This document shows positions 6,285 to 30,152 of a DNA stretch of 64,000 nt, one piece after another; the stretch's first letter is position 1, and each line of letters begins with the position of its first letter. The position numbers and the translations under genes were made by a program. The notes under the pieces are model-generated. The model was not told the origin of the DNA, searched no databases, and was given only the letters and a program-made list of their open reading frames with translations. The DNA is from Methanoregula formicica SMSP (GTDB lineage: Archaea; Halobacteriota; Methanomicrobia; Methanomicrobiales; Methanospirillaceae): the NCBI RefSeq assembly GCF_000327485.1, contig NC_019943.1, positions 1,736,001-1,800,000 on the forward strand. Reading direction: 5' to 3'.

Positions 6285-6291
6285 GACCAAA

Positions 6292-7269
6292 TCACCGCGT
6301 GCGCCGTGGTGCAGCGGGTTTGGTTTTCCTTTTTGCCGCTGCTGCCTTCACCGGCTTCTTTGCTGCGGCCTTTGCCTTCGGTACAGATCGCTTGATCGGG
6401 ATGGTTGAAAGCACTTTTTTGAGCTGTTCGGTCTTCTTTGCATCCAGCTCATCGAGCGGGAGACGGACCGGGCCGCCTGCAAGACCGATCAGCTCGACCG
6501 CCTTCTTGACCGGGATAGGGTTGGTGTCGATGAACATAGCACGGTGGAGGGGGGACATGGCATAGTGGATCACCAGGGCCTTCTGGTAATCGCCCTGCCT
6601 GAACGCCTCGTACATCGCCACCATCCGGGCCGGGTCGACATTTGCCGTAACAGAAATGACACCGGACCCGCCAAGGGTAAGGATCGGGAGCGTGATACCA
6701 TCATCGCCGGAGATAACGTGGAAGTCCTCGTCCTGCGTCTCCTCGATCACCCTTGAGATCTGGCCGATATTGCCGCTTGCTTCCTTGATCCCGACGATAT
6801 TCGGGTGCTGCGCCAGTTCCGCGACAAGATCGGGCTCCAGGTTCTGGCCGGTCCGTCCCGGGACATTGTACATGACAACCGGGATGTCGAGGTCTGCAAG
6901 TTTCGTGTAGTGCCTGATGAGCCCCGCACGGTTGGGCTTGTTGTAGTACGGACTGATGACGAGCACGCCGTCCGCACCGATGTCCTTCGCCGCCTTCGTC
7001 AGGCGCACTGCCTCGGCAGTGTTGTTGGAACCCGTACCGGCAAGTACGGGGATCCTGCCATTGACCTTGTCGACCGTGATATCGATGACCTTCTCGTGTT
7101 CATCGAACGTCAGGGTCGCAGACTCTCCAGTCGAACCGCAGGGTACAATCCCGTGGATGCCGCGGGAAAGAAGAAAACTGATGTTCCGCTCAAGACCCGG
7201 GATGTCCAGGCCCATTGCAGGGGTTCTTTTAAAAGGGGTTATGATTGCCGGAAGGACACCTTCGAACAT
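6292..7269 (-). CDS. dapA: 4-hydroxy-tetrahydrodipicolinate synthase with a basic C-terminal tail
   Basis: A 325-residue class I aldolase that condenses pyruvate with aspartate semialdehyde. Family landmarks are GSTGESATL near residue 45, the catalytic Tyr region YNVPGRTGQN and the Schiff-base lysine in VGIKEASG. The catalytic domain ends near residue 292 (QLKKVLSTIPI). It is followed by about 33 residues of Lys/Ala/Pro-rich sequence (KAKAAAKKPVKAAAAKRK) that normal DapA proteins (about 290 residues) lack. The tail resembles the disordered basic ends of nucleic-acid-binding proteins; its function is unknown. The frame stays open into dapB's ribosome site, so the tail is not an obvious frameshift artefact. 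Confidence 0.93.
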   Translation of the reverse strand: MFEGVLPAIITPFKRTPAMGLDIPGLERNISFLLSRGIHGIVPCGSTGESATLTFDEHEKVIDITVDKVNGRIPVLAGTGSNNTAEAVRLTKAAKDIGADGVLVISPYYNKPNRAGLIRHYTKLADLDIPVVMYNVPGRTGQNLEPDLVAELAQHPNIVGIKEASGNIGQISRVIEETQDEDFHVISGDDGITLPILTLGGSGVISVTANVDPARMVAMYEAFRQGDYQKALVIHYAMSPLHRAMFIDTNPIPVKKAVELIGLAGGPVRLPLDELDAKKTEQLKKVLSTIPIKRSVPKAKAAAKKPVKAAAAKRKTKPAAPRRTR

Positions 7270-9028: not shown

Positions 9029-12000
9029 TCATTTGTACTCCCACCTGAGCGGGTCGCGGTCGCGGCGACGCTTCCGGATGTACCCGGCAACCGCTACCGT
9101 GAGGATGGCGATTGCGGCGATGGCTTCCGCCACCAGGAACCAGGGGTTCTTCCACAGCCCCACGGCTTTTCCCGGTGCGGTTGCGGTATCGGCAATGACC
9201 CCGGCAACATCCTGCTGCGGTGCGGGCTGCACCTCTTCGGTCGGCCACGGGGTGATCCTCACCTTCTGTTTCGTGGGTTCGGTTTGGACCGGGGTTGCGG
9301 TCGGCGTGGCGGTCGCTGTCCCCGTTGCCGTGACCGCAGGAATTGCCGCGGTGGGCGGGTAATAGGAATAACTGTCGCCGTACTCATAGTACGACCAGGA
9401 CGATGATGAACTGCTGCTGGTCGTTGTCGTCACCGGCGCGTATGCGGTCAGGACGAATGTCGAGAGGCCGGTGGGGGAGATGGCGACGAAGTAGTCGTTG
9501 CCGTCCGCAGCGCAGAGGCCGGTCCATTCGGTTGCGAGGAACGTGACCGTGCCTTCGTCCGACCGGTGCATGACTTTGATCCGGGAGGTCCCGCCGTTGT
9601 CCTCGACCCAGGTGTGGTTGACGGCCATCGTGATGTTGGCGCTTTTGATGATGCCGCCGCTCCCGTAGTTGTCAATACCGGACTTCGAGAAGTATACCGT
9701 GTACGCGGTGGCGATGATGTTCTTCTTTTCCGATGCGGCGAGAATGGTGAACGAGCTCCAGACCGAGGAGTCCGGGTCGGAGGTGATAGTGCTGTTGATC
9801 GCGGCCGAGCTATTCGGGAGCTGCGAGAGCGTAAGGGTAAGCGTCACATTCGGTTTGCCGAGCGAGTCGATATTCACGCTGACGTTGGTGGCAACGGCCT
9901 CCAGGCTCTTTACCGTGCCGGTCACGTTCCCGGAGTCGGTCACGGCAGGAGCATCGAGAGTGATCTTCAGGTGGTCCCAGGCAGTGCCGACATTGTCCAC
10001 CGTGACGATATTCGTATTGGTACTGTCGATGGTTGCATTGGCGGCGCTGATGTTGATGCCCTGGCTCGATCCGGTGGCGTTTGTCACGATACCCGGGAGT
10101 TCGAAGGTCTTGTTCGTGCTGACCGGGTTGATTACTGTGATGTAGTTTGTCCGGATCTTCGTATCGGAGCCCTTGCTGTTGGTTGCGTTGAGCTTGACCG
10201 AATAGGTGCCGGCTTTCGTGTAGGTGTAGTCCGGGATCTGTTTTGCTGAGGTACCGTCATCGCCGAAATCCCATGCCCAGCCGGTCGGCGTGTTGAGCGA
10301 GGTGTCCCTGAACCTCGGGTTGAACGGTGCGATGCCTTCGGTCTGGCTGGCGGCGAAGTCCGCGACCGGGGGGATCACCTTCGCGGTGACGGAGTACCCG
10401 CTATCGATGGGGTTGGTCCAGCCCATGCCGGACGAGGCACGGTACCCGTACACGTTGAAGACGGCGTTGTCCGGAAGGTTTGTGAACGCGTAGTCGACCC
10501 GGACCGCGCCGTTGTTCTTCAGGCCCGGACTGCTGCTGAGCAGGCCGGATCTCGTGTCGATGAACATCAGCCGGTACTGGCTGGCCGGGCTGTTCATCTC
10601 CTCTCCCTTGAAGAGCGGGTAGTCCGCGTTGCCCTGCGTGGGTTTCCAGCTCTGCGGGCCGTAGAAGAGGTCGGCTTTCGTGAACGTCTGGTCGAGGGCC
10701 GTGGACTGGTAGGTGTACGTGCCTGCAGACGGTGCTTTTCCAGAAACCGGCGTCCACGTGTACCCGCTGGTCTTGATCCGGGCCGTGAAATCGTCCGGGA
10801 TGGTGCCGTTGACCGCCAGCAGGAGGACGACCTCGTCTTCGTACGAATCCCCGGTGATATAGAATGTCCCGGACTGGCTGTTCGTTATCGTGATCTTGTT
10901 GGACGTGTCCGCAGGATCGGTCGAGAGATGGAGCACGCCAAGACCGCCCGATCCCGTCGGGAGGTAATACGTGCCGTTGTCGTTATCGTTGAACCGGATG
11001 CCGTCGTGGTTCGCTGTCCGGATGTATGTCTTGTTGTTACCCGGGACCGGGCCGGTGGCGTTGACCACGTACACGAGGCCGGCCTTTGTAACGGTGCTGC
11101 TTCCCCCGGCATTAGTTACCGTGAGCTTGACCGGGTAGGTCCCGGCCGAGCCGTAGGTGTGTGTCGGGTCCCGGTACGTCGAGGTCGCAGTATCACCGAA
11201 GTTCCAGGACCATGACGTCGGGCTGTTGGTCGAGGTGTCGGTGAAGGTTACGGCCAGCGGGGCGACGCCGTTGACCTGGGTGGCGGTGAAGGAGGCGACA
11301 GGGGAGGGAGTGGGTGTGCCGCTGCCACCACAGGTGGTGGCGGAACCGGCGCAGAAGTCGTCGATGTTGGCATTCATTCCCAGACTATTCACATCGAATG
11401 CAACTTGCACCAGATGAACTCCGGTGTACCCGGATATCGGGACTCTATATTGTGTCCAGCTATGGGCGCATATATCGGTCTGGACCAAGACACCATCGAT
11501 ATAGGTTTTAAAATACTGGTTATAAGAACTACTGCCGTCCTCATATCCCCAGAACGAGATGTTGGAAATATCAGTCAGATCGACATGCTGCGCAATGTAA
11601 TCATATGTAGTGTGACCCATATAATCGAAAAAAACGGCATAATTTCCAGTATGTACTTTACTTGAGGAGACGGATGTATACCCAACGCCTGCGGTCCAGT
11701 CTGTCAGATCTCCCGTCTCGAATCCGGGGTTACTGAACCGGTTGGTTGCCACTGATGGAGTGACCGTGATGAGATTTGTTTTCAGGAGACTGTCATTGCC
11801 CCCGCCATTCATTACGGTCAGGTTAACCGTGTATGTCCCAGGCGCATACCAATGGATCGGGTTCTGTTCGGTCGAGGTGATTCCATCCCCGAAGTCCCAC
11901 GACCAAGCAACCGGGGAATTGGTTGAGGTATCGTTGAACTGAACCGCTACAGGTGAGATACCTGAGGTGACATCCGCAGTGAAGTCCGCAACCGGAACCG

Positions 12001-15273: not shown

Positions 15274-16218
15274 CTACTCAGATGGCGGAATAACCAACCA
15301 TCCGCTGGAATTCGGCTTAATTAATCCATCGGTCCGTTGATCATAAGAATACACCATATTCAGCCAGTTGATACCCGGTGCCAGGGACTCCTTCCCCAGC
15401 GAGGTCTGGTTGTTAGCTGCATAGACATTGAAGGCAATCCTTGCCTTGTCTGAGGGAGCACTCAGGATGTTGTATTCGATCTTCGTTGTACCATTGTTAT
15501 ATATCAGGTCGGGATCGTATTTTGCATTATACCAGGTACCGTTGATTGTTCCAATCTTGTTATCAACCACGATAAACTTGAATAATAAGCTTCCGGATCC
15601 CATATCCTGATCACAGTAGATGGGATACTCCGCAGTTGGTGCAAACTTCCATTTCTGGAATAGATCTACGGAATTATTTTCCAAGTAGTTATCTGCGTTG
15701 AGTGTCACGTCAATTGACGGATCTTTGTAAACGACGGTCTGATTGGGAGACCCAGTTGATGTTGGTATCCAGTAATACCCACGCTCCTTGATGTTAATGC
15801 TGAAATTGCTGATATCTGTTGGTTCACTACTGTTGACCGCTATGAGGAGGATAATGTCATCCTCACCACCTTTTCCGCCAGTATCCGATACATAGAATGT
15901 ACCAGAAAGGGCATTCGTCTGATCGCAGAATCCTTTGAAATCCGCAGTGTTATTCGTAATGTGGAGCGCGTTCAGTCCACCCGTGGGTTTCGTCAGGTTG
16001 ACGTAATAATACGGGTCACCCAGATATGTGCTACTGAATCTGATGGGAGGATTTGCCATCGGGATATACGTGTGATTGTTCGTATACGGCGCACTGTTTG
16101 AGTACGGCGTTACATTATAATTCGCCGCCACCGGCCCAACCGCCAGCGCGACGAACAGGAGGACGACCGCAGAGGCCATCCACCATAGTCTGTTCATGTC
16201 TTTGTTTCCTTTTTCCAT
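15274..16218 (-). CDS. secreted surface protein related to the giant protein
   Basis: A 314-residue exported protein. The signal peptide MNRLWWMASAVVLLFVALAV with cleavage near GPVAA-N starts at residue 8. The mature part is one copy of the domain found twice in the giant neighbour: GGLNALHITN, SGTFYVSDTGG, ILLIAVNSSEP, GYYWIPT, a segment like YGPQSWKP (FQKWKFAP), and RIAFNVYAAN. No PKD repeat or membrane anchor is seen, so it is probably released or assembled onto other surface proteins. The ATG at 16218 lies seven bases after GGAGGT. Its promoter, leader and signal peptide are copied at 18.2 and 19.4 kb. Confidence 0.78.
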   Translation of the reverse strand: MEKGNKDMNRLWWMASAVVLLFVALAVGPVAANYNVTPYSNSAPYTNNHTYIPMANPPIRFSSTYLGDPYYYVNLTKPTGGLNALHITNNTADFKGFCDQTNALSGTFYVSDTGGKGGEDDIILLIAVNSSEPTDISNFSINIKERGYYWIPTSTGSPNQTVVYKDPSIDVTLNADNYLENNSVDLFQKWKFAPTAEYPIYCDQDMGSGSLLFKFIVVDNKIGTINGTWYNAKYDPDLIYNNGTTKIEYNILSAPSDKARIAFNVYAANNQTSLGKESLAPGINWLNMVYSYDQRTDGLIKPNSSGWLVIPPSE

Positions 16219-16230
16219 AGTCTGTACCTC

Positions 16231-16253
16231 CGCGCAGGGCACCGCCCCGCGCG
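16231..16253 (-). promoter_or_regulatory. leader hairpin next to the ribosome site, cassette copy 1
   Basis: The sequence cgcgc-a-gggc-acc-gccc-c-gcgcg folds into a nine-pair hairpin with one mismatch and a three-base loop. It directly abuts the GGAGGT ribosome site of the surface-protein gene. The same 23 bases occur unchanged at 18261-18283 and 19467-19489. A role in translation control is inferred. Confidence 0.55.
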
Positions 16254-16254
16254 C

Positions 16255-16326
16255 GTCAACAAAAAACCATTGATCATGGCGGTTTGTTAACAATGAAACA
16301 TTGATCAAAATATGACACGATATATC
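16255..16326 (-). promoter_or_regulatory. TATA promoter and upper leader hairpin, cassette copy 1
   Basis: On the minus strand CGAAAGATATATCG (TATA core at plus 16318-16326, preceded by a BRE-like cgaaag) is a good archaeal promoter, placing the RNA start near 16295. Immediately downstream, 16255-16291 can fold by pairing gtcaacaaa...acc with ggtttgttaac. The corresponding hairpin in copies 2 and 3 uses different bases but still pairs. Confidence 0.55.
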
Positions 16327-16593
16327 TTTCGGCCAAGTAAAAATGAGAATATAATTTGTTTTTGAGATTCCTGCGGCATATTATGCCGGATCGATAATTC
16401 TCGCCGTGAACGATCGGATGGACCGGGAGCGGTGCACCGGAGAAAGGATTATGAAGAGGGCCGGGCGGATGCGAGGGAGGATAGGCGGGCCGGGGAGTGC
16501 ATGCGACCCGGCAGGGGATGATACTCCGGCGACTCCCTCACAAATCCTTATCAGATACACAATACAACATAAGAGACAAAGGTGCTCGAAAAA

Positions 16594-18128: not shown

Positions 18129-18248
18129 TCATTGTAGGGAAATAATCTTATCCGCCGCCACCGGCACCACTGCCGCAGCGACGAACAGGAGGACGACCGC
18201 AGAGGCCATCCACCACAATCTGTTCATGTCCTTGTTTTCTTTTGCCAT
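18129..18248 (-). CDS. signal-peptide-only ORF, cassette copy 2 (39 aa)
   Basis: The minus strand encodes MAKENKDMNRLWWMASAVVL and on through LLFVAAAVVPVAAD, then six unrelated residues and a stop. This is a complete Sec signal peptide matching that of the surface protein at 15.3-16.2 kb, with the same GGAGGT ribosome site, leader hairpins and promoter, but with no mature protein attached. It may be a decapitated gene or a kept leader cassette. Confidence 0.5.
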   Translation of the reverse strand: MAKENKDMNRLWWMASAVVLLFVAAAVVPVAADKIISLQ

Positions 18249-18535
18249 AGTCTGTACCTCCGCGCAGGGCACCGCCCCGCGCGCGCGTTAAAAATTAGTA
18301 ATTGGTTTTACCAATTTTTAACATCAAACTGTTAATCGAAATATGACACGATATATCTTTCAACTGAGTGAAAAATAAGAATATAATTTGTTTTAGGGAT
18401 TCCTGCGGCATATCGGGCCGGATAAAAAATCCTCGCCGTGAACGATCGGATGGACCGGGAGCGGTGCGGCTGCGAAAGGATTATGGGCGAGATCGGGCGG
18501 ACGCAAAGGGGATACGGCGGGGGTACCGGATGGAA
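18145..18535 (-). repeat. composite repeat copy 2: signal peptide, leader, promoter and R2 element
   Basis: Copy 2 of the composite repeat. The invariant GC hairpin is at 18261-18283, the upper hairpin (gttaaaaatt paired with aatttttaac) at 18287-18322, the TATA core cgatatatc at 18349-18357, and R2 from about 18416 with ccgtgaacgatcggatggac. Differences from copy 1 are spread through the repeat, so the duplication is not very recent. The gap 18249-18570 holds nothing else. Confidence 0.75.
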
Positions 18536-19349: not shown

Positions 19350-19454
19350 TCACGGATAATCCGCCGCCACCGGCGCAACCGCCAGCGCGACAAACAGGAG
19401 GACGACCGCCGAGGCCATCCACCATTGTCTGTTCATGTGTTCTTGTTTCTTCAT
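19350..19454 (-). CDS. signal-peptide-only ORF, cassette copy 3 (34 aa)
   Basis: The minus strand encodes MKKQEHMNRQWWMASAVVLL and on through FVALAVAPVAADYP, then a stop. It has the same promoter, hairpins and ribosome site as the genuine surface-protein gene. As in copy 2, nothing of the mature protein remains. The vapBC operon follows on the same strand. Confidence 0.5.
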   Translation of the reverse strand: MKKQEHMNRQWWMASAVVLLFVALAVAPVAADYP

Positions 19455-19740
19455 GTTCTGTACCTCCGCGCAGGGCACCGCCCCGCGCGCGTTAAAAATT
19501 AGTAATTTACATTTACCAATTTTTAACATAAAACCGTTGATCAAAATATGACACGATATATCTTTCGTTTGCATGAAAAGGTTGAATATATTTTATTTTT
19601 GAAATTCCTGCAGAATATTATGCCGGATCGATAATTTTCGCCGTGAACGCTCGGATGGACCGGGAGCGGTGCACCGGAGAAAGGATTATGAAGAGGGCCG
19701 GGCGGATGCGAGGGAGGATAGGCGGGCCGGGGATATAGTG
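19357..19740 (-). repeat. composite repeat copy 3: signal peptide, leader, promoter and R2 element
   Basis: Copy 3. The GC hairpin is at 19467-19489, the upper hairpin (gttaaaaatt / aatttttaac) at 19491-19527, the TATA core at 19554-19562, and R2 at about 19622-19735, nearly identical there to copy 1. A relB-like gene begins about 120 bp to the right on the other strand. The gap 19455-19860 contains no other gene. Confidence 0.75.
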
Positions 19741-20794: not shown

Positions 20795-20877
20795 GCCCCG
20801 GGCGGACGCAAGGTGGACGGCGGGGCCTGGGTGAGCATGCGACCTGGCAGGGGATGACACCCCCCGTACCTCCGCCG
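20795..20877 (-). repeat. partial R2 repeat, copy 4
   Basis: ccgggcggacgcaaggtgga followed by gagcatgcgacctggcagggg matches the right-hand part of composite copy 1. The promoter and signal-peptide portions are absent. It ends about 55 bp before a RelBE-type operon, like copies 1 and 3 before their neighbours. Confidence 0.55.
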
Positions 20878-20915
20878 CGGGCAATCCCGAAGGATCTGGT
20901 TTAATATCTATAGTC

Positions 20916-20925
20916 ACCTATAGGT
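20916..20925. promoter_or_regulatory. palindromic operator candidate before the RelBE-type operon at 20.9 kb
   Basis: acctataggt is a perfect 10-base palindrome seven bases before the ATG at 20932, and ctatag is repeated just upstream at 20908-20913. A TATA-like ttaatatcta at 20901-20910 overlaps it, so a repressor bound here would block transcription. Confidence 0.5.
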
Positions 20926-20931
20926 CTTACT

Positions 20932-21168
20932 ATGCAGGCTGCAAGTTCCATTTACATCCGGGAAGATCTCAAAACCCAGCTGAACACCCTGAAACGTCAC
21001 CCGAAAGAATCGTACAATGACGTTATTGAACGCCTGGTGAATCTTGCTGTTGACGATGAACCGCTCAGTGCCGATGCTATCCGGGGTCTGGAAGAAGGTC
21101 TCCATGATATCAAAGCGGGAAACCTGATCCCTGAAGAGGAAATCCGGAAGAAATACGGTGCTGAATGA
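20932..21168 (+). CDS. antitoxin of a RelE-type pair (ribbon-helix-helix-like)
   Basis: A 78-residue protein: SSIYIREDLKTQLNTLKRHPKESYNDVIERLVNLA looks like a ribbon-helix-helix DNA-binding domain, and the acidic C-terminal helix (LEEGLHDIKAGNLIPEEEIRKKYG) is the usual toxin-binding element of archaeal RelB/VapB proteins. Its stop overlaps the toxin start by four bases (ATGA), the classic coupled TA arrangement. An operator-like palindrome precedes it. Confidence 0.82.
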   Translation: MQAASSIYIREDLKTQLNTLKRHPKESYNDVIERLVNLAVDDEPLSADAIRGLEEGLHDIKAGNLIPEEEIRKKYGAE

Positions 21169-21440
21169 GCCCGTACAGAGTACAGTACACCCATCGTGCA
21201 GACCGGGATCTGGAAAAATTACCCCGGGAGATTGCCCGGAAGGTTGTCAGTGCGATTCACCAGATACGGGATGACCCGTACCAGTTCATCAAAAAAATGA
21301 AGGCGTCAAACCCGGATCATCCGGTGTATTCACTCCGTGTCAGAAGAGACGTTCGTGCACTGCTCTCAATCCATGATGACCTCCTGATTATTCATGTTCT
21401 TGAAATCGAACACAGGAAACAGGCATACCGGGATTTCTAA
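21165..21440 (+). CDS. RelE family toxin
   Basis: A 91-residue RelE-like mRNA interferase: YRVQYTHRADRDLEKLPREIARKVVSAI, then DDPYQFIKKMKAS, the strands VYSLRVRRDVRALLSIHDDLLIIHVLEIEHRKQAYRDF with the conserved Arg residues and C-terminal Tyr-Arg. It is complete and of normal length, with coupled translation from the antitoxin. Only this pair and the one at 19.9 kb are RelE-type here, and the two toxins are clearly different in sequence. Confidence 0.85.
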   Translation: MSPYRVQYTHRADRDLEKLPREIARKVVSAIHQIRDDPYQFIKKMKASNPDHPVYSLRVRRDVRALLSIHDDLLIIHVLEIEHRKQAYRDF

Positions 21441-21450
21441 AAAACATATT

Positions 21451-21540
21451 CCGGCCGGGCGGCAGCACAAATTCTGGCGCATGCCAGCCGCACGGGAGCA
21501 GGAGAGGGGACACAGGCGAACCGGGAACGCGGGCCGGGAG
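21451..21540 (+). repeat. R1 repeat, copy a
   Basis: Begins ccggccgggcggcagcac and continues through gccagccgcacgggagcagg to cgaaccgggaacgcgggccg. It lies ten bases after the RelE stop. The rest of the gap to 21746 shows no gene. Confidence 0.75.
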
Positions 21541-21746
21541 CGGGAACAAGAAAAGATGCAGGAGGAGGTGGGACGGGGAACCCGGGTCTGTGCAGTTCTA
21601 CCGGAGATGGCCTTCTCGTTGTGAGCGGAATACCTGGACGAACACGTAAAAACCCGCCCGAAAAGATCGGGCCCTTATGCAAAGTTGCCCCCGAATGCAG
21701 GAGTGTGAGAAGACCGGAACGGAGGAATAAAAGCCGGGTCTTTTAA

Positions 21747-22881
21747 TCAACTCCGGATATTCTTCAGGTATTCCGCAAAAAGCGGGTGAAACAACGAATA
21801 TTTTCCCCGCTCAACCCTGGACAGCAATGGTGCAGGGGAACCACTCAGGTTCTTTAAGTAGATATTCACGCTTTTCACACCGCTCAATTCTGCGATCTCC
21901 GTATTACTCAACAAATCCTTATGGGACAAAACAAAAGCCTGGAGGATCTTCCGCTCGTTCTGGCTTGTCCGGGAATAAATACTTTCGAATAATCTCTTCC
22001 CCAGATATGCAAGAATCCGGGAAAAGTTCTGTTCCAGATCCGCAACAGTGATCCGGACCCCGGTCTTGGAGGAAAAAAGATTATAGGCAAAAACCTGCAC
22101 AAAATAGGGATGTCCCCGGGTAAGCTCGAAAATTCTGTCCATACAGGCATCCTCGAAAACAATACCGGTACCGGTAAGCGGTTTGGTTATCGCCTCGTAA
22201 GTTTCTTCCCGCGAGAACGGACCAAGATCAATCCCCCAGAAAAAACGCACCGCCGGTTCGGATGCCGAACGCATATCGGCAAACAAGGTCTCTTTACCCG
22301 AGAGGATCAGCATGCATCGTATACCATCGGCAGACTGGATCATCTGGAAGATATTCCGCAGTTCAAATATGGCGCCCTTGATCGCAAGCAGCTGCTCTGC
22401 ATTATCCAGCATAATCAGGTAGGGAACATCAAGCGTACCGGATATAGAGATGAGATCTTCTTTGAACCGGAACATGTCCGGGTTTACTTTCTTCTTATCC
22501 GAATAGGATATCCCGACGGGTCCGTAGTTTACACTCAGGGAAAGCCCCTCAAGAAACTCCCGGATTTTCACTGCCGCTCCGCTCATCGGGGTTGCATCCT
22601 TTGCAAGGCTCCGGGTTATCGTCTCAAAAAGCGCGATGAATGAATCGGTAGATTCACCCAGTTCAATGATTGTCGCGGCACAATTCCTGTGCTCCGCACG
22701 ATGCTTGAATGTCCGTAACAGCGAGGTCTTTCCGATCCCCCATCCCCCAAGGATGGCCAGATTCTTTAAAATTCCCGTCGATAGTATCTGCAAGAAACCG
22801 ATCAAACTCCTCAATCTGGTGTACCCGTCCGGCAAATTTTTCCGGAGGGACCGGGTGTTCAGCGCTGTACGGATTAACCAT
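21747..22881 (-). pseudogene. AAA-type ATPase gene with a +1 frameshift
   Basis: The true N-terminus is MVNPYSAEHPVPPEKFAGR followed by an acidic helix ending in TIDGN, encoded from 22881. About 40 codons in, the frame changes at the run ctttaaaatt (22764-22773). Beyond it the other frame carries the Walker A motif GGWGIGKTS, a Walker B-like LIMLDNAE, a sensor-like LILSGKE, and a C-terminal winged-helix-like region (LSNTEIAELSG). Removing one base restores a product of about 377 residues of the STAND/ATPase type. Such ATPases are common in methanogens with unknown roles. The break may be a mutation, a sequencing error at a homopolymer or, less likely, programmed slippage. Confidence 0.72.
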
Positions 22882-23116
22882 CGTAATCGTTTCTCCACAA
22901 AAATTAAAAAAATTAATGAAATTAATTGGTGGCCTTAATTGATATAATTTTCATCATTTCCAAAAAAGATCCGGGATATCGTTCTTAACAAAGACGACTG
23001 GTTACCTTGCCAGGCACAAATCAAATGACTGCCCATGGAAGCAAAAACGCCAAACGAAATCCGGATTCAGGGGTTTGAAGTCTTGGGAGAAAATCCCGTG
23101 CCTGCGGACGCGATCC

Positions 23117-23246
23117 CGGCCCGGTCCCGGGCCCCGCCTTTCCATAGATCCGGCCGCGCCCGGGCGGCAGCACCAATCCCGACGCAGGCCAGCCGCTCGG
23201 GAGCAGAGGGCGGAACACAGGCGAACCGGGAACGCAGCTCCCGTCT
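23117..23246 (+). repeat. R1 repeat, copy b
   Basis: A full-length copy: cggcccggtcccgggccccg, tttccatagatccggc, cggcagcaccaatcccgacg and gcgaaccgggaacgc. It differs from the others by a few bases and a small insertion (cgcgcccggg). It lies in the 564-bp gap between the ATPase gene and an MntA-HepT operon; the rest of that gap shows no gene. Confidence 0.75.
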
Positions 23247-23445
23247 AATCAGCGGGAAACGATCGAACGGCCATCACAAGGAAAGGGAAAAAGAGATCTA
23301 TACTCCGGCATGATATGAGAGAATAATTCTTTTGCAGTTGCCGGTACCCCCGCCCCAGAGCAAGAATCTATAAACAGCCAGCAGCTAAAACCGTAAACAA
23401 CAGCGATATTCATCAGGTACAGGGAAATTCGGGAGTGAAACGATC

Positions 23446-23757
23446 ATGAATCCACTCATCGTGAGCCGGGAAAAAAAGATAGAAGAGTTCTGTAAAAAGT
23501 GGAACGTACGCGAACTCCTGGTCTTCGGCTCTGCCTTAAGGGCTGATTTCCGCCCGGAAAGTGACATTGATATCATCGTGGATTTCAAACCCGGCTCTGT
23601 GCATACCCTTCTTCATCTCGCAAAAATGGAGGAAGAACTTGAACGGGTTTTTGGCAGGCGTATCGATCTCATTACCCGCAAGGCCATAGAACAAAGCCGG
23701 AATCACATACGGAAAAAGACGATCCTTTCAACAATGGTGCCGGTCTATGTCGCGTGA
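23446..23757 (+). CDS. mntA: MntA-type minimal nucleotidyltransferase antitoxin
   Basis: A 103-residue nucleotidyltransferase with the signature FGSALRADFRPESDIDIIVDF (GS...SDIDxxV). In characterised pairs MntA transfers AMP to a tyrosine of HepT and so silences it. The C-terminal helix (DLITRKAIEQS) is typical. It overlaps the HepT gene by 11 bases. The ATG at 23446 follows gaaattcgggagtgaaacgatc, where GGAG provides a ribosome site. Confidence 0.85.
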   Translation: MNPLIVSREKKIEEFCKKWNVRELLVFGSALRADFRPESDIDIIVDFKPGSVHTLLHLAKMEEELERVFGRRIDLITRKAIEQSRNHIRKKTILSTMVPVYVA

Positions 23758-24091
23758 CGATGCCTATCTTCTCGACCTTCTCCTTATGGCAAAGGACGCA
23801 CACGAGTTCACGAAGAACCAGACCCGGGAATCCTTTCTTTCGGATCGGAAGGGCCAGTACGCAGTTATCCGGTGCCTCGAAGTGATCGGGGAAGTATCGA
23901 AGCGGCTCTCCCCGGAGACAATACGCCGGTTCTCGTCAATCGAATGGTCATCTATGGCACGGATGCGGGACATGCTCATTCATTCCTATGGCAAAGTGGA
24001 TCTTGACGAGATCTGGGACACGGTTAAAGAGGACATCCCGCATCTCATCGCAACGCTTGAACCATGTATCGATGAATTTGAGCGTCAGTAA
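23747..24091 (+). CDS. hepT: HepT-type HEPN toxin
   Basis: A 114-residue HEPN ribonuclease. The catalytic RxxxxHxY motif is RDMLIHSYG near residue 79, with the tyrosine as the expected AMPylation site. The helical layout (LLDLLLMAKDAHEFT, IRCLEVIGEVSKRLSPE, WSSMARMRD) is standard. It is intact. Together with the overlapping mntA it forms one of four MntA-HepT pairs in this island, and their sequences differ enough that recent local duplication is unlikely. Confidence 0.87.
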   Translation: MSRDDAYLLDLLLMAKDAHEFTKNQTRESFLSDRKGQYAVIRCLEVIGEVSKRLSPETIRRFSSIEWSSMARMRDMLIHSYGKVDLDEIWDTVKEDIPHLIATLEPCIDEFERQ

Positions 24092-24186
24092 CCGGCGTGG
24101 CTGCCTTTACCCTGGTGGCGGACCTTCTAAAAATCCTCTCTTCATCAGTCTTTTAATCAGGAAAGCCGAGGAGACCCGGGGGAGTT

Positions 24187-24423
24187 TCACGCCTCGACCT
24201 CAATAACGGAGGTAAATTTTTCCGGGGACGAGATGGAAGGTTCGATATCCCCGATCATATCGTATTCGCGTGCATTTTTCAGGTAGAGATCGATCGCCTC
24301 CCGGATATTTTCGAGTGCTTCTTTGGGGGTATCGCCACAGCTCGCCACTTCCAGTTCAACGCACTTTGATACATACACACCATCTTCTTCCCAGATGGTG
24401 ACCGTAAAATGATAATTTGCCAT
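24187..24423 (-). CDS. orphan HicB family antitoxin
   Basis: A 78-residue HicB-like protein: YHFTVTIWEEDGVYVSKCVELEVASCGDTPKEALENIREAIDLYL, then NAREYDMIGDIEPSISSPEKFTSVIEVEA. It closely follows the HicB pattern at 16.9 kb, including the Cys-Val-Glu-Leu core. No hicA gene lies on either side: the downstream neighbour is the end of hepT. It is the third orphan HicB in the island. Confidence 0.8.
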   Translation of the reverse strand: MANYHFTVTIWEEDGVYVSKCVELEVASCGDTPKEALENIREAIDLYLKNAREYDMIGDIEPSISSPEKFTSVIEVEA

Positions 24424-24679
24424 CTTTTCTCAACCGGATAGATTATCGATCACGGGCAATGAACTTTGTTGTCGCGGTTGTCTGCAAGAAAACGAAAAGA
24501 GAGGGAAAGAGACCACAGGATCCCGGGCATATGGGACATCCACGAACGTCCTGCTGCTGTGAGTTCGCGATCTTGCTGGGGGACCGGTGATGATCTGCTA
24601 AAGATTATGAAGAAGAATGCACCACGTACATCTGTATGTGCAGATAATCCGCTGCACTGGTTGATGGAGGTGAATCATC

Positions 24680-24883
24680 ATGGGGAGTAAAACGATCGCA
24701 AAGATCCAGAGTGAAGGATACGATGCCCTTGTTAATGCACTTGGGCCGGAGGATGCGATTCGGTTCATCAGGAGTTTTGATCCCGGCAGTGGCGATTACA
24801 CCAAGGACCGGAAAAAATATCTTAAGAAAATGACAGTAAAACAGATTGGAAAAGAGATTCTCGAATTGCAGAAATCTCTCTGA
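24680..24883 (+). CDS. hypothetical protein, 67 aa, antitoxin-like
   Basis: A small protein: MGSKTIAKIQSEGYDALVNA, then LGPEDAIRFIRSFDPGSGDYTKDRKKYLKKMT and a charged C-terminal helix (VKQIGKEILELQKSL). A very good ribosome site (GGAGGTGA) precedes the ATG. The size, charge pattern and place in a TA island suggest the antitoxin half of a pair whose toxin is missing; the following 346 bp contain only an R1 repeat. The family name is not known to me. Confidence 0.6.
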   Translation: MGSKTIAKIQSEGYDALVNALGPEDAIRFIRSFDPGSGDYTKDRKKYLKKMTVKQIGKEILELQKSL

Positions 24884-25000
24884 ATATTTCAGCCAGTCTC
24901 TTTTTTATCATAACTTCCTGGAAAATGCCAGTCGAAGAACGAATACCCGGCAGCGAAATGCTTTTCTCCGGATTGGGACCGCTCCAGATACCAGACCCCC

Positions 25001-25130
25001 GGCCGGGACCGGCCCGGTCCGGGCACCGCCTTTCCATAGATCCGGCCGGGCGGCAGCACCGGTCCTGGCGCAGGCCAGCCGCACAGGAGCGGGAGAGGGG
25101 ACACAGGCGAACCGGGAAAGCGGGCCGGGG
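25001..25130 (+). repeat. R1 repeat, copy c
   Basis: A full copy with an extended left flank: gaatacccggcagcgaaatg and cttttctccggattggg just upstream also match the flank of copy f at 28.8 kb. The core runs from ggccgggaccggcccggtcc to accgggaaagcgggccg. The gap 24884-25229 contains only this and the operator described next. Confidence 0.75.
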
Positions 25131-25211
25131 ATTTATCAATTAGCACCATACCACAGGAAGCAGGAGGGGTGCTTTCCCACCGGAGAAGGTGCACAATTGC
25201 TAAATAGTATC

Positions 25212-25247
25212 GTTCATAATAATGAACATATGTTCAAAAAAATGAAC
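25212..25247. promoter_or_regulatory. four-half-site operator overlapping the start of the HTH-nucleotidyltransferase gene
   Basis: GTTCAT (25212) and ATGAAC (25222) form one inverted repeat. GAACATATGTTC (25224-25235) is a perfect 12-base palindrome sharing a half site with it. Another ATGAAC follows at 25242. The array covers the candidate start codons at 25230, 25242 and 25248, so binding of the gene's own helix-turn-helix protein would block its expression. Autorepression is inferred from the position. Confidence 0.55.
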
Positions 25248-25775
25248 ATGTTGGAAACTCCCTCTTTTGAAATACTCACGTTTCTTGGCCGGAATTATCG
25301 CAACGCATACTATGTCCGCGAGCTCGCCAGGATCCTCCCGCTGAGCATTGGTGCTGCAAGCGGGTATCTCCGGATACTGGAAGAACACGGTCTCGTGACA
25401 AGCGAACGGAAAGGAAGAACGCTCCTGTTCCGGGCAGATATCGCCCATCCGCTCGTACGGGAATCAAAGATCCTTGCAACCCTGATAGAACTGTCACCTC
25501 TCATCGCTGCCGGAGAGGGACTCGTGACACGGATGATCCTGTTCGGGAGTTGCGCTACCGGGGAAGATACCGCAGACAGCGATATCGATCTCTATATCGA
25601 AACTGCCAACCGCCCGGAAGTATCCGACCTCATCTCCCGGTACGGCGACACCATTTCCCGGAAAATCTCTCCGGTTCTCGTATCGCCGGAAGAGGCGCAG
25701 CAGCTCCGCACCCGCGACCGCCCGTTCTTCGAAAGGATACGTACAGGAAAACTTCTTGCAGGTGAGATGCCGTGA
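25230..25775 (+). CDS. HTH-nucleotidyltransferase fusion (MNT-type antitoxin with winged helix)
   Basis: A 181-residue protein. Residues about 8-80 form a winged helix (FEILTFLGRNYRNAYYVRELARIL, GAASGYLRILEEHGLVTSERKG). Residues about 95-180 are a minimal nucleotidyltransferase with FGSCATGEDTADSDIDLYIE. Most MNT antitoxins lack the DNA-binding part, so this one probably regulates its operon directly and may AMPylate the HEPN protein encoded next, with which it overlaps by GTGA. Start codons at 25230, 25242 and 25248 are all in frame; no ribosome site is evident, so the mRNA may be leaderless. Confidence 0.82.
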   Translation: MFKKMNMLETPSFEILTFLGRNYRNAYYVRELARILPLSIGAASGYLRILEEHGLVTSERKGRTLLFRADIAHPLVRESKILATLIELSPLIAAGEGLVTRMILFGSCATGEDTADSDIDLYIETANRPEVSDLISRYGDTISRKISPVLVSPEEAQQLRTRDRPFFERIRTGKLLAGEMP

Positions 25776-26191
25776 AGTACCGGTTTGAGGAATGTCTCGA
25801 ACGGGGAAAGATCGTAAAAATCCCGGTCGATCCCGCGCTGGTCGAAAAAGAACGCCAGGAAGCAGCGGCGGATCTTATGGCGGCTGAACATTCACTCAGC
25901 CAGAACCAGGTGAAGTGGGCGATCATCCAGGGATATTATTCACTCTTCCACGCGCTGAGATCCCGGGTATTTGCCAAAGGTTACCGGGAAAAGAGCCACC
26001 GGTGCCTCAGGTTCGCGGTCGAGGCACTGCTGGTCGATGAGGGTGAACTCGGGCCGGAGGTACTGGACCATTTTTCCTTTGCCATGGATCTCCGTGAGGG
26101 GGCCGATTATGGTTGCATCTATAATGCCGAGTCCGCCGGAATTGTCGTCGCGTCGGCACGAACGGTGTATGAGATGATCAGTACGGAATAA
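25772..26191 (+). CDS. HEPN-domain protein, partner of the HTH-nucleotidyltransferase
   Basis: A 139-residue HEPN protein of the larger type associated with nucleotidyltransferases (COG1895-like). It has the helical signature VKWAIIQGYYSLFHALRSRVFAKGYREKSHRCL and the tail SAGIVVASARTVYEMIS. The GTG start overlaps the stop of the previous gene. Unlike the HepT proteins here it has no clear RxxxxHxY motif, although GYREKSHRCL holds an R-x3-H arrangement; ribonuclease activity is therefore uncertain. The pair is best seen as a TA module or related two-gene defence unit. Confidence 0.8.
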   Translation: MKYRFEECLERGKIVKIPVDPALVEKERQEAAADLMAAEHSLSQNQVKWAIIQGYYSLFHALRSRVFAKGYREKSHRCLRFAVEALLVDEGELGPEVLDHFSFAMDLREGADYGCIYNAESAGIVVASARTVYEMISTE

Positions 26192-26245
26192 TAAAACACC
26201 AGCAAACGGATGCCGGACAATTATGGTGCACAGAAAATATCATAT

Positions 26246-26330
26246 GCCGGGCAGCACAGGTCCCGGCGCAAGCCAGCCGCACGGGAGCAGGAGAGGGGAC
26301 ACAGGCGAACCGGGAACGCGGGCCGGGAGC
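26246..26330 (+). repeat. R1 repeat, copy d (left-truncated)
   Basis: Begins at ccgggcagcacaggtcccgg and runs through agccagccgcacgggagcag to accgggaacgcgggccg. The left third (tttccatagatccgg) is missing. It lies between the HEPN gene and the next mntA; no other gene is in that gap. Confidence 0.72.
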
Positions 26331-26426
26331 GGGGGAGAACGATGCAGGAGAAAGGGGGAACCTGCCGTGGATATGACAAAGGAAATAATTATTGTGGGAC
26401 ACAGCAGATAGGATGACAGGAATAGC

Positions 26427-26720
26427 ATGACAAGCCGGGACGAAATTCTCGATCTGCTCAAATCCTTAAAAAGCGATCTTACCGTACGGTATAAAGTCCG
26501 CAGCATCGGTGTATTCGGCTCATTTGCCCGGAAAGAGGCACGCTCTGACAGCGATGTGGACATCCTTGTCGATTTTAATGAGGGTGCAGATCTCTTCGAT
26601 CTCATCGGACTTTCAGATTATCTTGAAGAAAAGATCGGGAGGCACGTGGATCTTGCTACCCCCCGGGCACTCCGGCCGGAGATTCGTGACGGAATTTACC
26701 GGGATGTCGTGTACGCATGA
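26427..26720 (+). CDS. mntA: MntA-type nucleotidyltransferase antitoxin
   Basis: A 97-residue minimal nucleotidyltransferase with IGVFGSFARKEARSDSDVDILVDF and the C-terminal VDLATPRALRPEIRDGIYRDVVYA typical of the family. It overlaps hepT by four bases (ATGA). It belongs to the common short MntA class, unlike the copy at 23.4 kb. Confidence 0.88.
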   Translation: MTSRDEILDLLKSLKSDLTVRYKVRSIGVFGSFARKEARSDSDVDILVDFNEGADLFDLIGLSDYLEEKIGRHVDLATPRALRPEIRDGIYRDVVYA

Positions 26721-27055
26721 GGGAATACCGGCTCCTTCTGGAGGATATCCTCAAAGCCGCTGAAGATATCCGAAATTTTACTCAGGGCATATCCATGGAA
26801 CATTTTGTCGCAGATGAGAAGACCCGGTCTGCGGTTCTGTACAAATTCGCCGTCATGGGTGAAGCGACTAAACTGTTACCGGATCAGGTCCGGGCACAAT
26901 ATCCCGATATCCCGTGGCGCAGCATTGCAGGACTGCGGGATAAAGTAATTCACGGATATATCGGTGTGGATTACGAGCTTCTTTGGGAGACAATTGACAA
27001 GAAAATCCCGGTTGTAATCGAAGGTCTTCATCGGATCCTGAAAGATGTTCCCTGA
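26717..27055 (+). CDS. hepT: HepT-type HEPN toxin
   Basis: A 112-residue HepT. The core YPDIPWRSIAGLRDKVIHGYIGVDYELLW carries the catalytic RxxxxHxY motif (RDKVIHGY) with the tyrosine that MntA modifies. The N-terminus (LLLEDILKAAEDIRNFT) and C-terminus (KKIPVVIEGLHRIL) are normal. It is an intact pair with the overlapping mntA. Confidence 0.9.
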   Translation: MREYRLLLEDILKAAEDIRNFTQGISMEHFVADEKTRSAVLYKFAVMGEATKLLPDQVRAQYPDIPWRSIAGLRDKVIHGYIGVDYELLWETIDKKIPVVIEGLHRILKDVP

Positions 27056-27124
27056 CAATACAACAGGCAGGTTCACCGGCTCTATTCACGGGAATGAATC
27101 CGGGAATTCCTGAATTTCCAGGAT

Positions 27125-27170
27125 GAGGGGGGCATGGCTAAACTCATGAGGGGGGCATGGCTAAACTCAT
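27125..27170. repeat. tandem duplication of a 23-bp unit
   Basis: gaggggggcatggctaaact followed by cat is repeated twice head to tail, with a partial third start (gaggg). Each unit contains ATGGCTAAACTCATG, a start-like string (MAKLM) that also appears as ATGGCGAAACTCATG at about 17711, but no frame continues as a protein. It may be a relic of a gene start. Confidence 0.6.
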
Positions 27171-27230
27171 GAGGGAGGCGGGTAAACCGGAGTGGGTCCG
27201 GGGAGACTTCGATGACGGGAAGGCAGGCTG

Positions 27231-27357
27231 GAGGCCGGGCCCCCGCCTGTCCATAGATCCGGCCACCCGGGCGGTGGCACAGATCCCGGTTCAGGCCAGC
27301 CGCACGGGAGCCGGGGACACAGGCGAGCCGGGAACCCGGGCCGGGAGAGCATTATGG
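27231..27357 (+). repeat. R1 repeat, copy e
   Basis: A divergent full copy: ccgggcccccgcctgtccat, agatccggccacccgggcgg, tcaggccagccgcacgggag and caggcgagccgggaacccgg. It lies between a hepT end and the end of the broken hepT on the other strand. No gene is seen in 27056-27417. Confidence 0.72.
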
Positions 27358-27417
27358 AGGAGGGGGGACGGGTAGTTACAGAAGAGGAACTGCGGGAGGG
27401 AGTTATCAGACAGGCAC

Positions 27418-27784
27418 TTATTCCCGCGAGCCCTTGTTCCGAAGGTCCCGGAGTATCCGTTTGAGTCCGGTCTTCAGGGCAGGAAGATCCTGTTCGACAG
27501 TAGTCCATAAGTGCCGGACATGGACATCAAAATAGGCATGGATCAGCTTGTCCCTGGTCCCGGCAATAGCCCGCCAGGGTATTTCCGGGTATTCTTTCTG
27601 GACAGATTCCGGGACATGTTTTGCCGCCTCGCCGATGATCTCAAGTGCCCGGGTGACTGCAAATATCTTCTCATCATTGCTGAGGAATGCGGAAGAGCTC
27701 CATCCCCCGGGTAAACTCGCAGGCTTTCTCTGCAGCATGCAGCATATCCTCTCAGTAGACATCAAAATCCCGGGCGGACTTCAT
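27418..27784 (-). pseudogene. hepT toxin, inactivated by a stop codon and a frameshift
   Basis: Reading from the ATG at 27784, which overlaps the mntA stop, gives MKSARDFDVY, a TGA at codon 11 (27754-27752), then EDMLHAAEKACEFTRGMELFR. An extra base near 27688 moves the frame, after which it continues FLSNDEKIFAVTRALEIIGE and on to YPEIPWRAIAGTRDKLIHAY with the catalytic motif RDKLIHAY. Two independent lesions make a sequencing error unlikely. A shorter product starting inside the gene would lack the first helix. The antitoxin upstream is intact. Confidence 0.8.
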
Positions 27785-28110
27785 AGAGAGACTGCCTCAC
27801 TGATGATACGATTGCGGAGGGCCGGCTTGACAGCACTTTTTTCAACCAGATCGATCGGGATAGCAAGATAGGATGACAAATCCTGCTCAAGGGAAACAAG
27901 ATCGAAGAGCGAGATCTTCCGCGCAGGATCGAACTCCACAAGAATATCCAGATCGCTTCTTTTGGTCTGCTCGCCCCGTACCCAGGAACCAAAAATCTCA
28001 AGGGAGGTGATCCCGTACATTTGCCGGAGTTCCGGCAACCTCTGGCGGAGAAGGGCCTTCATCTCTTCCAGGGATCTCTTTGTCAGGGAGTTCGGTACCG
28101 TCTTTTTCAT
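27781..28110 (-). CDS. mntA: MntA-type nucleotidyltransferase antitoxin
   Basis: A 109-residue nucleotidyltransferase with ITSLEIFGSWVRGEQTKRSDLDILVEF and the C-terminal PIDLVEKSAVKPALRNRIISEAVSL. The N-terminal extension (SLEEMKALLRQRLPELRQMYG) is a normal family feature. Its toxin is a pseudogene, so the AMP-transferase may have no local substrate unless it acts on the other HepT proteins nearby. Confidence 0.88.
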   Translation of the reverse strand: MKKTVPNSLTKRSLEEMKALLRQRLPELRQMYGITSLEIFGSWVRGEQTKRSDLDILVEFDPARKISLFDLVSLEQDLSSYLAIPIDLVEKSAVKPALRNRIISEAVSL

Positions 28111-28274
28111 GATACAAACGCTGGATCTGGTTTTGGGTGTTGTTCAGCAACCGGGTTCCTGTACTGGCAGATTCTTTTCGTACAGTTCTGTTCTATTAAA
28201 GATAGGTGAATGAGATAATAAACGCAAGCTATCCCGGCCCGTTTGAACAATGTCAGCTATATCCGGAAACCCCC

Positions 28275-28500
28275 TCCCGGTTTATTTCACGTGCTCATGT
28301 CCGGAAAAAATGGCGGTTGTTGATCCAAAAGGCACCAATTAAACGGTTTTTTGGGGCAATATTGGGCCCGGATAGGGATGATGTCAACGCCATGGGCGTA
28401 TTTCCAAACGATGTGCTGTAATTCGTGAAAAAATGTGAGTGTCGGAAAGAGGTGTTCGAAGAATACTGACGGATTCTTCTCATCCTCTTGGTCTGACGAC
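28275..28500. repeat. intergenic repeat R3, copy B
   Basis: Matches 8511-8745 in ordered blocks, including gtgctcatgtccggaaaaaa and gatccaaaaggcaccaatta. On the minus strand it reads KNRLIGAFWINNRHFFRT and a stop, close to KNRLIGAFWMEDRYFFRT in copy A. It ends near the inverted sequence tggtctgacgaccagtc at 28490-28506, similar to ggtctgatgaccagtcgg at 58694. Apart from this and R1 copy f, the 849-bp gap 28111-28959 shows no gene. Confidence 0.6.
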
Positions 28501-28802
28501 CAGTCAGTTTTTCAAAATGAGCTCGGAACCGAAAACGAAGCGATTTACGTAGAGATTATTCCCGCAGGGAATAACCTCTGGAGAAGAATGCCCAGACAGG
28601 GCCTTCTTGGACGGGAGATTGGTTTTTGGGATTGTGTCTCCTTCCTGGGAGGGGGTGTTCCAACGTGAGGGGGTCTGCCGGGAAGCCCGCTGCGCCAGGA
28701 ACTCATGCACGCCAGCGGCCCGGATTACCTGCCGGACTGAGTGGTGCACCACACTGCATCAGGAATGCCCGGCTGGGAATTGCTTTTCTCTGGATGGGGA
28801 TC

Positions 28803-28922
28803 AGCCCGGTCCGGGCCCCACCTTTCCCGCAGATCCGGTCGGGCGGCAGCACCAATCCCGACGCAGGCCAGCCGCACGGGAGCAGGAGAGGGGACACAGG
28901 CGAACCGGGAACGCGGGCCGGG
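28803..28922 (+). repeat. R1 repeat, copy f
   Basis: A full copy: cccggtccgggccccacctt, gcagatccggtcgggcggca, caccaatcccgacgcaggcc and caggcgaaccgggaacgcgg. Its left flank (gaatgcccggctgggaattg, cttttctctggatgggg) also matches copy c, so the repeat unit can reach about 160 bp. The vapBC operon starts 38 bp after it. Confidence 0.75.
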
Positions 28923-28959
28923 CAACATTCATAACCTCACACAGAGGAATGATATATCA

Positions 28960-29169
28960 ATGACCGAGATTGTCCTGAACGTCCCTGACGACCTGCCACT
29001 TCCCGGGCTTGTTGCACGACTGGAGCGTCTCATTGAGGAAGAACACTTAAAATGGATGTTGTTCTCAAAGAGCGTAGATGCCATTGCACTTGACGACAAG
29101 GACCAGGCCGCGTTTGAAAAGGTGCGGGAGCAGGCATGGAACGGGACAAAGAAAGAATTCGGATTGTAA
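28960..29169 (+). CDS. vapB: VapB-like antitoxin
   Basis: A 69-residue antitoxin: MTEIVLNVPDDLPLPGLVAR, then the helix LERLIEEEHLKWMLFSKSVDAIALDDKDQAAFEKVREQAW. The N-terminus resembles a ribbon-helix-helix strand, and the acidic helix should bind the toxin. It overlaps the PIN gene by 34 bases. The start at 28960 follows a TATA-like gatatatc, and GAGGAATGATATATCA gives an upstream ribosome site. Confidence 0.72.
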   Translation: MTEIVLNVPDDLPLPGLVARLERLIEEEHLKWMLFSKSVDAIALDDKDQAAFEKVREQAWNGTKKEFGL

Positions 29170-29579
29170 TCGATACCAACGTCCTGATAGGGGCTCTCAT
29201 TAAGGACAATTCATTCAAAGCCAGGATAGTAAAAGACCGGCATTTTGATTTTTTCTTCCCTGATTACGGACACATTGAGATCGAAAAATTCCGGGATTAT
29301 ATCAGTACGAAACGCGGGAAAGTCCCTGCTGCTCCTTCCTTCGATTATGCCATAACGTTCCTGCTCGACTCGGTTACTACGGTTCCCCGGCAGTTATACA
29401 AGGATCAGGTCCAGCGGGCATACAAAGAGATGGCTGCAATCGATCCCAAGGACACGCCGTTTCTGGCACTGGCCCTCCACCTTGAAAGCCCGATCTGGTC
29501 GGACGATACCCACCTGAAGCGGCAGACACTTGTCCCTTGTTACACGACGGGGGAGATCTCCAGGCTTTCTGAAAGATGA
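29136..29579 (+). CDS. vapC: PIN-domain toxin (VapC-like)
   Basis: A 147-residue PIN nuclease with the expected acidic residues: Asp in IVIDTNVLIGAL, Glu in YGHIEIEKF, Asp in DPKDTPFLALALH and Asp in IWSDDTHLKRQ. It begins inside the antitoxin gene (34-base overlap), which would tie its translation to the antitoxin. It is unlike the VapC at 18.6 kb, so the two pairs are independent acquisitions or very old paralogues. Confidence 0.85.
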   Translation: MERDKERIRIVIDTNVLIGALIKDNSFKARIVKDRHFDFFFPDYGHIEIEKFRDYISTKRGKVPAAPSFDYAITFLLDSVTTVPRQLYKDQVQRAYKEMAAIDPKDTPFLALALHLESPIWSDDTHLKRQTLVPCYTTGEISRLSER

Positions 29580-29634
29580 GAGTAAAAGTAAACTTTTTTG
29601 ACAGATTTTCCTGAATTTATCGTCCCAAACGAGG

Positions 29635-29856
29635 TCAATCATTCAGCTCGCTCATGAGATCGTGTACGGAACCGGATCGTACCTGGCCAAGAGAATAATT
29701 CTTCTCCGCATCGCGTGCCCGTTCTGCGATACGCTCGCGTTCGGTCTCGATGAGTCGGCTGGACAATATCCGGTACATCAAAGAGAACCCGGACTCGTAG
29801 ATTCTCTTGAACGACCTCGGCTGCTGCCTGATGAAGAAGAGGTAGTACGACAATGC
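29635..29856 (-). CDS. hypothetical protein, 73 aa, next to an R1 repeat
   Basis: Read leftward from the ATG at 29856 the frame encodes MALSYYLFFIRQQPRSFKRI, a hydrophobic/basic segment, then a long charged helix (RLIETERERIAERARDAEKNY) and GSVHDLMSELND. It looks more like a protein than the shadow frames around it. An R1 repeat begins 15 bases upstream, so its original promoter and possibly its first codons may have been replaced. I recognise no family. Confidence 0.4.
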   Translation of the reverse strand, partial: ALSYYLFFIRQQPRSFKRIYESGFSLMYRILSSRLIETERERIAERARDAEKNYSLGQVRSGSVHDLMSELND

Positions 29857-29870
29857 CATCCCGTCGTTTG

Positions 29871-29997
29871 GCCGGGACCGGCCCGGTCCGGGCCCCGCCT
29901 TTCCATAGATCCGGCCGGGCGGCAGCACCAATCCCGACGCAGGCCAGCCGCACGGGAGCGGGAGAGGGGACACAGGCGAACCGGGAACGCGGGCCGT
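29871..29997 (+). repeat. R1 repeat, copy g
   Basis: The best consensus copy: ggccgggaccggcccggtcc, tttccatagatccggccggg, cggcagcaccaatcccgacg, gccagccgcacgggagcggg and acacaggcgaaccgggaacg. A short extra gggagcaggagaggg follows at 30006, as if the right end had been partly re-copied. The rest of the gap to 30152 has no gene. Confidence 0.78.
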
Positions 29998-30152
29998 GCC
30001 TGACCGGGAGCAGGAGAGGGATGGCGGAAGAATTGGCCGGGACAGGAAAGACCAGAGCGGGGCGAAAGCCCTATTTTTTATTATATATACAAACCAATCG
30101 GATACATTGATATCCAGCAAAGGGACCCGCGGCCCGGATATCCGGAAGGAAA

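Follow-up and report, generated by a model that had tools for sequence, protein, structure and literature searches.

Comparison of the methanogenic archaeon Methanoregula formicica SMSP with a second Methanoregula species suggests that R1, a short GC-rich repeat, serves as the recombination site at the trailing end of mobile gene cassettes, which are mostly toxin–antitoxin (TA) operons, form an array at two loci, and exchange inside the 18-nt block ACACAGGCGAACCGGGAA; we put the probability of this reading at about one half. Each cassette would begin just past ACACAGGCGAACCGGGAA of one R1, contain one or two genes, and finish where the block ends in the following R1. Through exchange inside the block, loci and lineages would acquire cassettes, lose them, or pass them to one another, with R1 remaining with the upstream gene and the downstream gene retaining only a few bases past the block. 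The exchange may be site-specific and carried out by a recombinase acting in trans, a circle is the putative intermediate, and the TA cargo may stabilize the array. As far as aligned sequences can demonstrate it, cassettes have been gained and lost at R1 and have relocated, their identity exceeds that of the chromosomal backbone, and the three clean recombinants all have their switch point in the block.

The window analyzed here is the 64,000-nt stretch C1:1736001-1800000 of the single-contig M. formicica SMSP genome (2,820,858 bp; PMC4155587). A de novo repeat search recovers R1 as a seven-copy family with all copies on the plus strand, in agreement with the original prediction in number, position, and orientation. 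The common core is ~70–85 nt long and the full unit ~127 nt, with 80–95% identity among copies over 80–127 nt. A 43-nt core pattern allowing up to three mismatches finds five matches in the window against 0.00 expected in shuffled sequence. Neighboring copies share one orientation at a spacing of 1.0–1.9 kb, and a search for inverted R1 pairs within the window found none. R1 length varies with the upstream gene: copies a and d are short forms without the left 40–45 nt, and the extra left flank noticed earlier in copies c and f is indeed common to both. The 7-nt string GGCCGGG stands at both ends of full-length R1 and is common to most copies, and ACACAGGCGAACCGGGAA is near-invariant and the best conserved part of the repeat. 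We rejected R1 as a coding repeat, as 1- and 4-nt indels break the frame and variable sites fall 11/6/12 by codon phase, with no clear coding pattern.

From left to right, the array opens with RelB-like antitoxin and ParE/RelE toxin genes (20932–21440, +), a RelB/RelE-ParE operon trailed by copy a (21450–21540; switch block end 21527). The ATPase cassette (21528–23232, +), which measures 1705 bp from switch point to switch point and is absent from the matching junction in the second species, carries an ATPase gene (21747–22898, −) and is trailed by copy b (23115–23245; block end 23232). The MNT/HepT-1 pair (NTP_transf_2 and HepT-like; 23446–24091, +) is followed by a unit at 24187–24883 made up of HicB (24187–24423, −) and orf24 (24680–24883, +), which copy c trails (25001–25131; block end 25118). 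Beyond it lie the HTH-MNT/HEPN cassette genes (25230–26191, +) with copy d (26244–26330; block end 26316), and MNT/HepT-2 (26427–27055, +) with copy e (27228–27347), the most diverged. A perfect 23-bp tandem duplication (ATGAGGGGGGCATGGCTAAACTC) occupies positions 27123–27168, just left of copy e. HepT/MNT-3 (27418–28110, −) precedes copy f (28794–28924; block end 28911), and a putative antitoxin with a PIN_2 toxin (28961–29579, +) precedes copy g (29870–30000), which forms the right border of the array and adjoins the conserved chromosomal flank from tfx onwards.

Pfam thus places TA genes between most R1 copies (ParE/RelE with a VapB-like partner, three MNT/HepT pairs, HTH-MNT/HEPN, HicB, and PIN_2), while one R1-bounded unit encodes an AAA/STAND-type ATPase. 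That R1 always lies between TA operons is therefore correct for the most part; the a/b interval encloses the ATPase, the 0.5 kb left of copy f is gene-poor, and copy g borders a tfx-type regulator. The genes point in either direction. By domain content, toxin and antitoxin domains sit in adjacent genes, as in type II TA systems, and in PADLOC the MNT proteins match mainly the candidate defence families PDC-S09 and PDC-M05A. In the second species, the array cargo adds YafQ, HicA, Phd/YefM, and further PIN units, and the HicB and orf24 of the window are remnants of HicBA and PIN/orf24 units, which are preserved more fully there. The small ORF orf24 (window 24583–24918; L176 1544–2237; L129 9582–10214) is conserved in many Methanoregula genomes, with identities of up to 95%. 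At intact loci it comes after a PIN gene, which has been lost in the window, and orf24 is therefore probably the antitoxin of the adjoining PIN toxin.

R1 has a narrow distribution. A sequence-only model built from 17 copies was run over 232 genomes of the order and finds R1 in two of them, M. formicica (8 copies) and Methanoregula sp. STB_131 (10 matches, 1 partial); the other four matches among the 232 are weak (E 0.003–0.009) and look like chance. A search of the genome and its relatives, as had been proposed, thus yields one further genomic copy and one further species. The eighth full M. formicica copy (C1:728052-728217, −) lies at a 728-kb locus, outside the 8.6 kb in which R1 had originally been noticed. 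Full copies are confined to the two arrays, at the 1.76-Mb and 728-kb loci, and none are scattered. A pattern scan of GTDB gives matches in STB_131 contigs only, and IMG/VR, PLSDB (plasmids), and phage records contain no match. The species comparison sets one finished genome against one metagenome-assembled genome, STB_131, a short-read assembly of ~5x coverage as judged from contig names; its R1 copies are spread over four contigs, each of which breaks off within the array and has a single R1 orientation. Most Methanoregula genomes contain homologous TA operons without R1, and R1 is therefore separable from its cargo. We found no description of an R1 cassette array in open-access papers.

BLAST comparison of the array with the STB_131 contigs reveals common cassettes in a different order. 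Window 20888–21530, comprising RelBE and its R1, is 99.7% identical in STB_131, and the segments 23157–24518, 24098–25129, 25041–26333, 27379–28270, and 28843–29774 are 97.5, 96.7, 94.5, 96.0, and 95.3% identical, respectively. Interspecies identity of the cassettes (94.5–99.7%) is therefore higher than that of the chromosomal backbone (86–90%). The 1.76-Mb array occupies the equivalent chromosomal place in both species, with STB_131 contigs C1 and C18 holding the two flanks and ending inside the array; the 728-kb locus is also common to both. At 728 kb, STB_131 holds the HicBA and HTH-MNT/HEPN cassettes, both of which M. formicica has at 1.76 Mb. At R1, two filled/empty pairs show clean junctions. 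In the first, STB_131 reads RelBE-R1-MNT1/HepT where M. formicica reads RelBE-R1-ATPase-R1-MNT1/HepT. In the second, at 728 kb, M. formicica reads gene9439-R1-x where STB_131 contig C2 reads gene9439-R1-HicBA-R1-x. Cassette order, relocation, and the two clean pairs together bear out the expectation that gene content should vary between the two species while the repeat stays.

Three recombinant copies locate the switch within R1 (numbering is relative to the CCGGGAA end, which is the block end). C33_562 resembles its RelBE parent at 12 of 12 informative sites between −74 and −19 and its MNT1 parent at 20 of 20 from +3. C37_10 switches cleanly from upstream to downstream parent between −28 and 0. 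In K728 the change falls between −22 and +2; three sites run contrary to it, −58 and −32 on one side and +21 on the other. All three intervals include ACACAGGCGAACCGGGAA, near the R1 3′ end. Core identity follows the upstream cassette: pairs with a common upstream cassette reach 0.917 versus 0.833 (permutation P = 0.0004), an effect carried largely by the RelBE trio, and pairs with a common downstream cassette are not raised (0.855; permutation P = 0.30). In the three recombinants, R1 switches from upstream-linked to downstream-linked inside ACACAGGCGAACCGGGAA, so a cassette would consist of a gene and its trailing R1. Two copies are exceptions. The core of C18_173 resembles copy c in its left part and copy b in its right part, and that of C37_1225, compared with copy d, is c-like instead of d-like, which indicates a switch or conversion in the left core. 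From these two alignments, conversion or homologous exchange within R1 evidently also happens.

Such mosaics also fit the strongest rival explanation, in which R1 is passive, cassettes are exchanged by RadA-type homologous recombination between copies within or between genomes, and R1 has multiplied as tandem duplications copied it along with TA operons. We regard this as a plausible second choice, short of an even chance. The 80–95% identity among copies over 80–127 nt favors it, but the identical stretch at the switch points measures only 21–28 bp, which is short for homologous recombination. The position of the clean switches bears on both sides: all three lie where the parents have their longest perfect match, a place that homologous recombination would favor too, yet three of three fall in one 18-nt block, against roughly 3% expected for crossovers spread evenly over the core. 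Homologous recombination also fits the absence of a linked recombinase but leaves unexplained why approximately nine unrelated upstream units end in R1. As in TA and defence islands spread by homologous recombination, TA operons are clustered at fixed places with varying content and decayed copies; unlike in those islands, every unit here is trailed by a specific repeat, R1, one block of which contains the clean exchanges. A site-specific recombinase would explain why the switch block is fixed and conserved and why R1 stands at the end of many unrelated units. Between a recombinase in trans and plain homologous recombination as the mover, we lean slightly toward the recombinase.

The M. formicica genome encodes four tyrosine recombinases (PF00589), none in the window and all hundreds of kb from the arrays; one of them is a 305-aa XerA-type protein found across the genus. 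We found no recombinase gene linked to either array and no serine recombinase (PF00239) in the genome. At their left ends, both loci have a gene without a Pfam match (window 15274–16308; L064 9439–10380); it was considered as a recombinase and rejected, since its sequence looks like that of a secreted protein, signal peptide included. A tentative extension of the cassette reading, which we consider somewhat unlikely in this specific form, is that R1 is the site of an integron-like capture of TA and defence cassettes in methanogenic archaea, independent of IntI/attC, in which a double-stranded or other non-hairpin site would be served in trans by a host tyrosine recombinase (for example XerA or a phage-type integrase) or by an unknown enzyme.

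Literal integron membership, with R1 as the attC sites of a degenerate integron or CALIN (a cluster of attC sites without an integrase), is very improbable. IntI-less CALINs are common, and integrons also occur in archaea (Ghaly et al. 2022, PMC9668308). The R1 array resembles them as a row of small units, each with a same-orientation trailing site of similar size, that are gained, lost, and reordered with a switch near the site 3′ end; its sites are similar within the genome. R1 shows at least two same-orientation sites less than 4 kb apart, as in a CALIN, and, as in an integron, gain and loss of cassettes at a site that the upstream gene keeps. The cargo is TA-rich, as it is in sedentary Vibrio integrons. 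Unlike integrons and CALINs, the array has no attC motifs, hairpin, or IntI, its genes run in both orientations, and its site is found in two species only. The attC R″ (RYYYAAC)/R′ (GTTRRRY) pair is absent from all seven R1 copies and their flanks on either strand, and no integron integrase lies beside the array, the window being devoid of PF00589 genes. Folding of full R1 and of a 67-nt core, on both strands and with RNA and DNA parameters, gives no excess stability (z-scores ~0 or positive), and the predicted core structures differ from copy to copy. RNAalifold predicts 15 pairs with 0 compensatory changes, so the proposed check for a fold with covariation returned neither a fold beyond composition nor compensatory pairs. 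Archaeal integrons described so far retain the attC fold (PMC9668308). The R1 array is a cassette array in behavior that fails integron membership by sequence, and its assignment to integrons is largely refuted. Of the original prediction of capture at an attC-like recombination site, the behavior is supported (gene content and order change at R1 boundaries, with the switch near the 3′ end and R1 staying with the upstream gene), whereas the attC identity, with no motifs, fold, or nearby integrase, is not.

The two remaining options raised at the outset fare no better. R1 is short, repeated, GC-rich, and non-coding, as are MITE and REP-type repeats, and at C33 ~2750 (rc of L067) in STB_131 an R1-less junction joins its two sides at GGCCGGG (compare window 29860–29880 and 27340–27380), the string found at both R1 ends. 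A non-autonomous transposable element (MITE) landed by chance between TA operons is nevertheless highly unlikely: GGCCGGG, present in most copies, is therefore no target duplication, R1 was found to have neither terminal inverted repeats nor target site duplications, its length follows the upstream gene, and it differs from such repeats in having no palindrome and no scatter, with full copies in a single orientation at two loci only. An expressed small RNA or regulatory element common to TA operons, which conserved non-coding sequence downstream of genes might suggest, is hardly credible given no Rfam match up to E = 1 over 16 kb, no excess fold or covariation, the position of R1 behind genes on either strand, and its absence from homologous TA operons in other species.

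A second one-orientation repeat family extends the array left to ~16.1 kb, with plus-strand copies (R2 tail) at 16395–16560, 18428–18521, 19632–19733, and, partial, 20798–20863, and HicAB, PIN, and ParE-like units between them. Within the genus it is found only in M. formicica and STB_131, and in the latter the same right-hand sequence is joined to different left-hand ones; STB_131 copy C33 5089–5296 joins the second repeat to an R1 right half. The boxes CCGGGCGG and GGCGGGCCGGGGA of the second repeat look similar, by eye only, to R1 CCGGGCGG and GGCGAACCGGGAA. A ~375-bp repeat (window 16117–16496, 18150–18521, and 19356–19733; L064 9321–9568; L183 1061–1436, 3091–3359, and 4843–5219) corresponds to the 5′ end and upstream region of the secreted-protein gene family, which is intact at window 15274–16308 and L064 9439–10380 and mostly present as truncated remnants; its end is a GC-rich tail with the behavior of a second exchange repeat.

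Around homologous TA operons in other Methanoregula, we observed direct repeats in several genomes and almost no inverted ones, and established no R1-like family. Around an MNT/HepT-2 operon homolog in one genome (L138, G008), 0.7–0.9-kb direct repeats with none inverted (5756–6657, 10291–10995, 13660–14551) are possibly another kind of array. A 190-nt repeat in four direct copies (L126, G034; 8778, 10057, 10319, 10586) lies beside an HTH-MNT/HEPN operon homolog, and a 75–85-nt direct repeat with a palindrome (GCGCAAAAC..GTTTTGCGC; L128, G195; 2576, 3271, 4175, 9676) has one copy just before a RelBE homolog. In M. formicica itself, a TA-rich stretch without R1 (L134, G000:C1:806000-825900) contains ten direct-repeat pairs and no inverted ones.

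To our knowledge, integrons are essentially the only described arrays in which each cassette is trailed by a recombination site. Integron-like behavior around an unrelated site would, if the reading is true, mean that this layout arose more than once. The 18-nt block ACACAGGCGAACCGGGAA provides a defined target for an enzyme search in a cultivated methanogen, and the two arrays offer a base-pair-level view of TA operon swapping between archaeal genomes and a new, small setting for the question of how a gene gains its trailing site.
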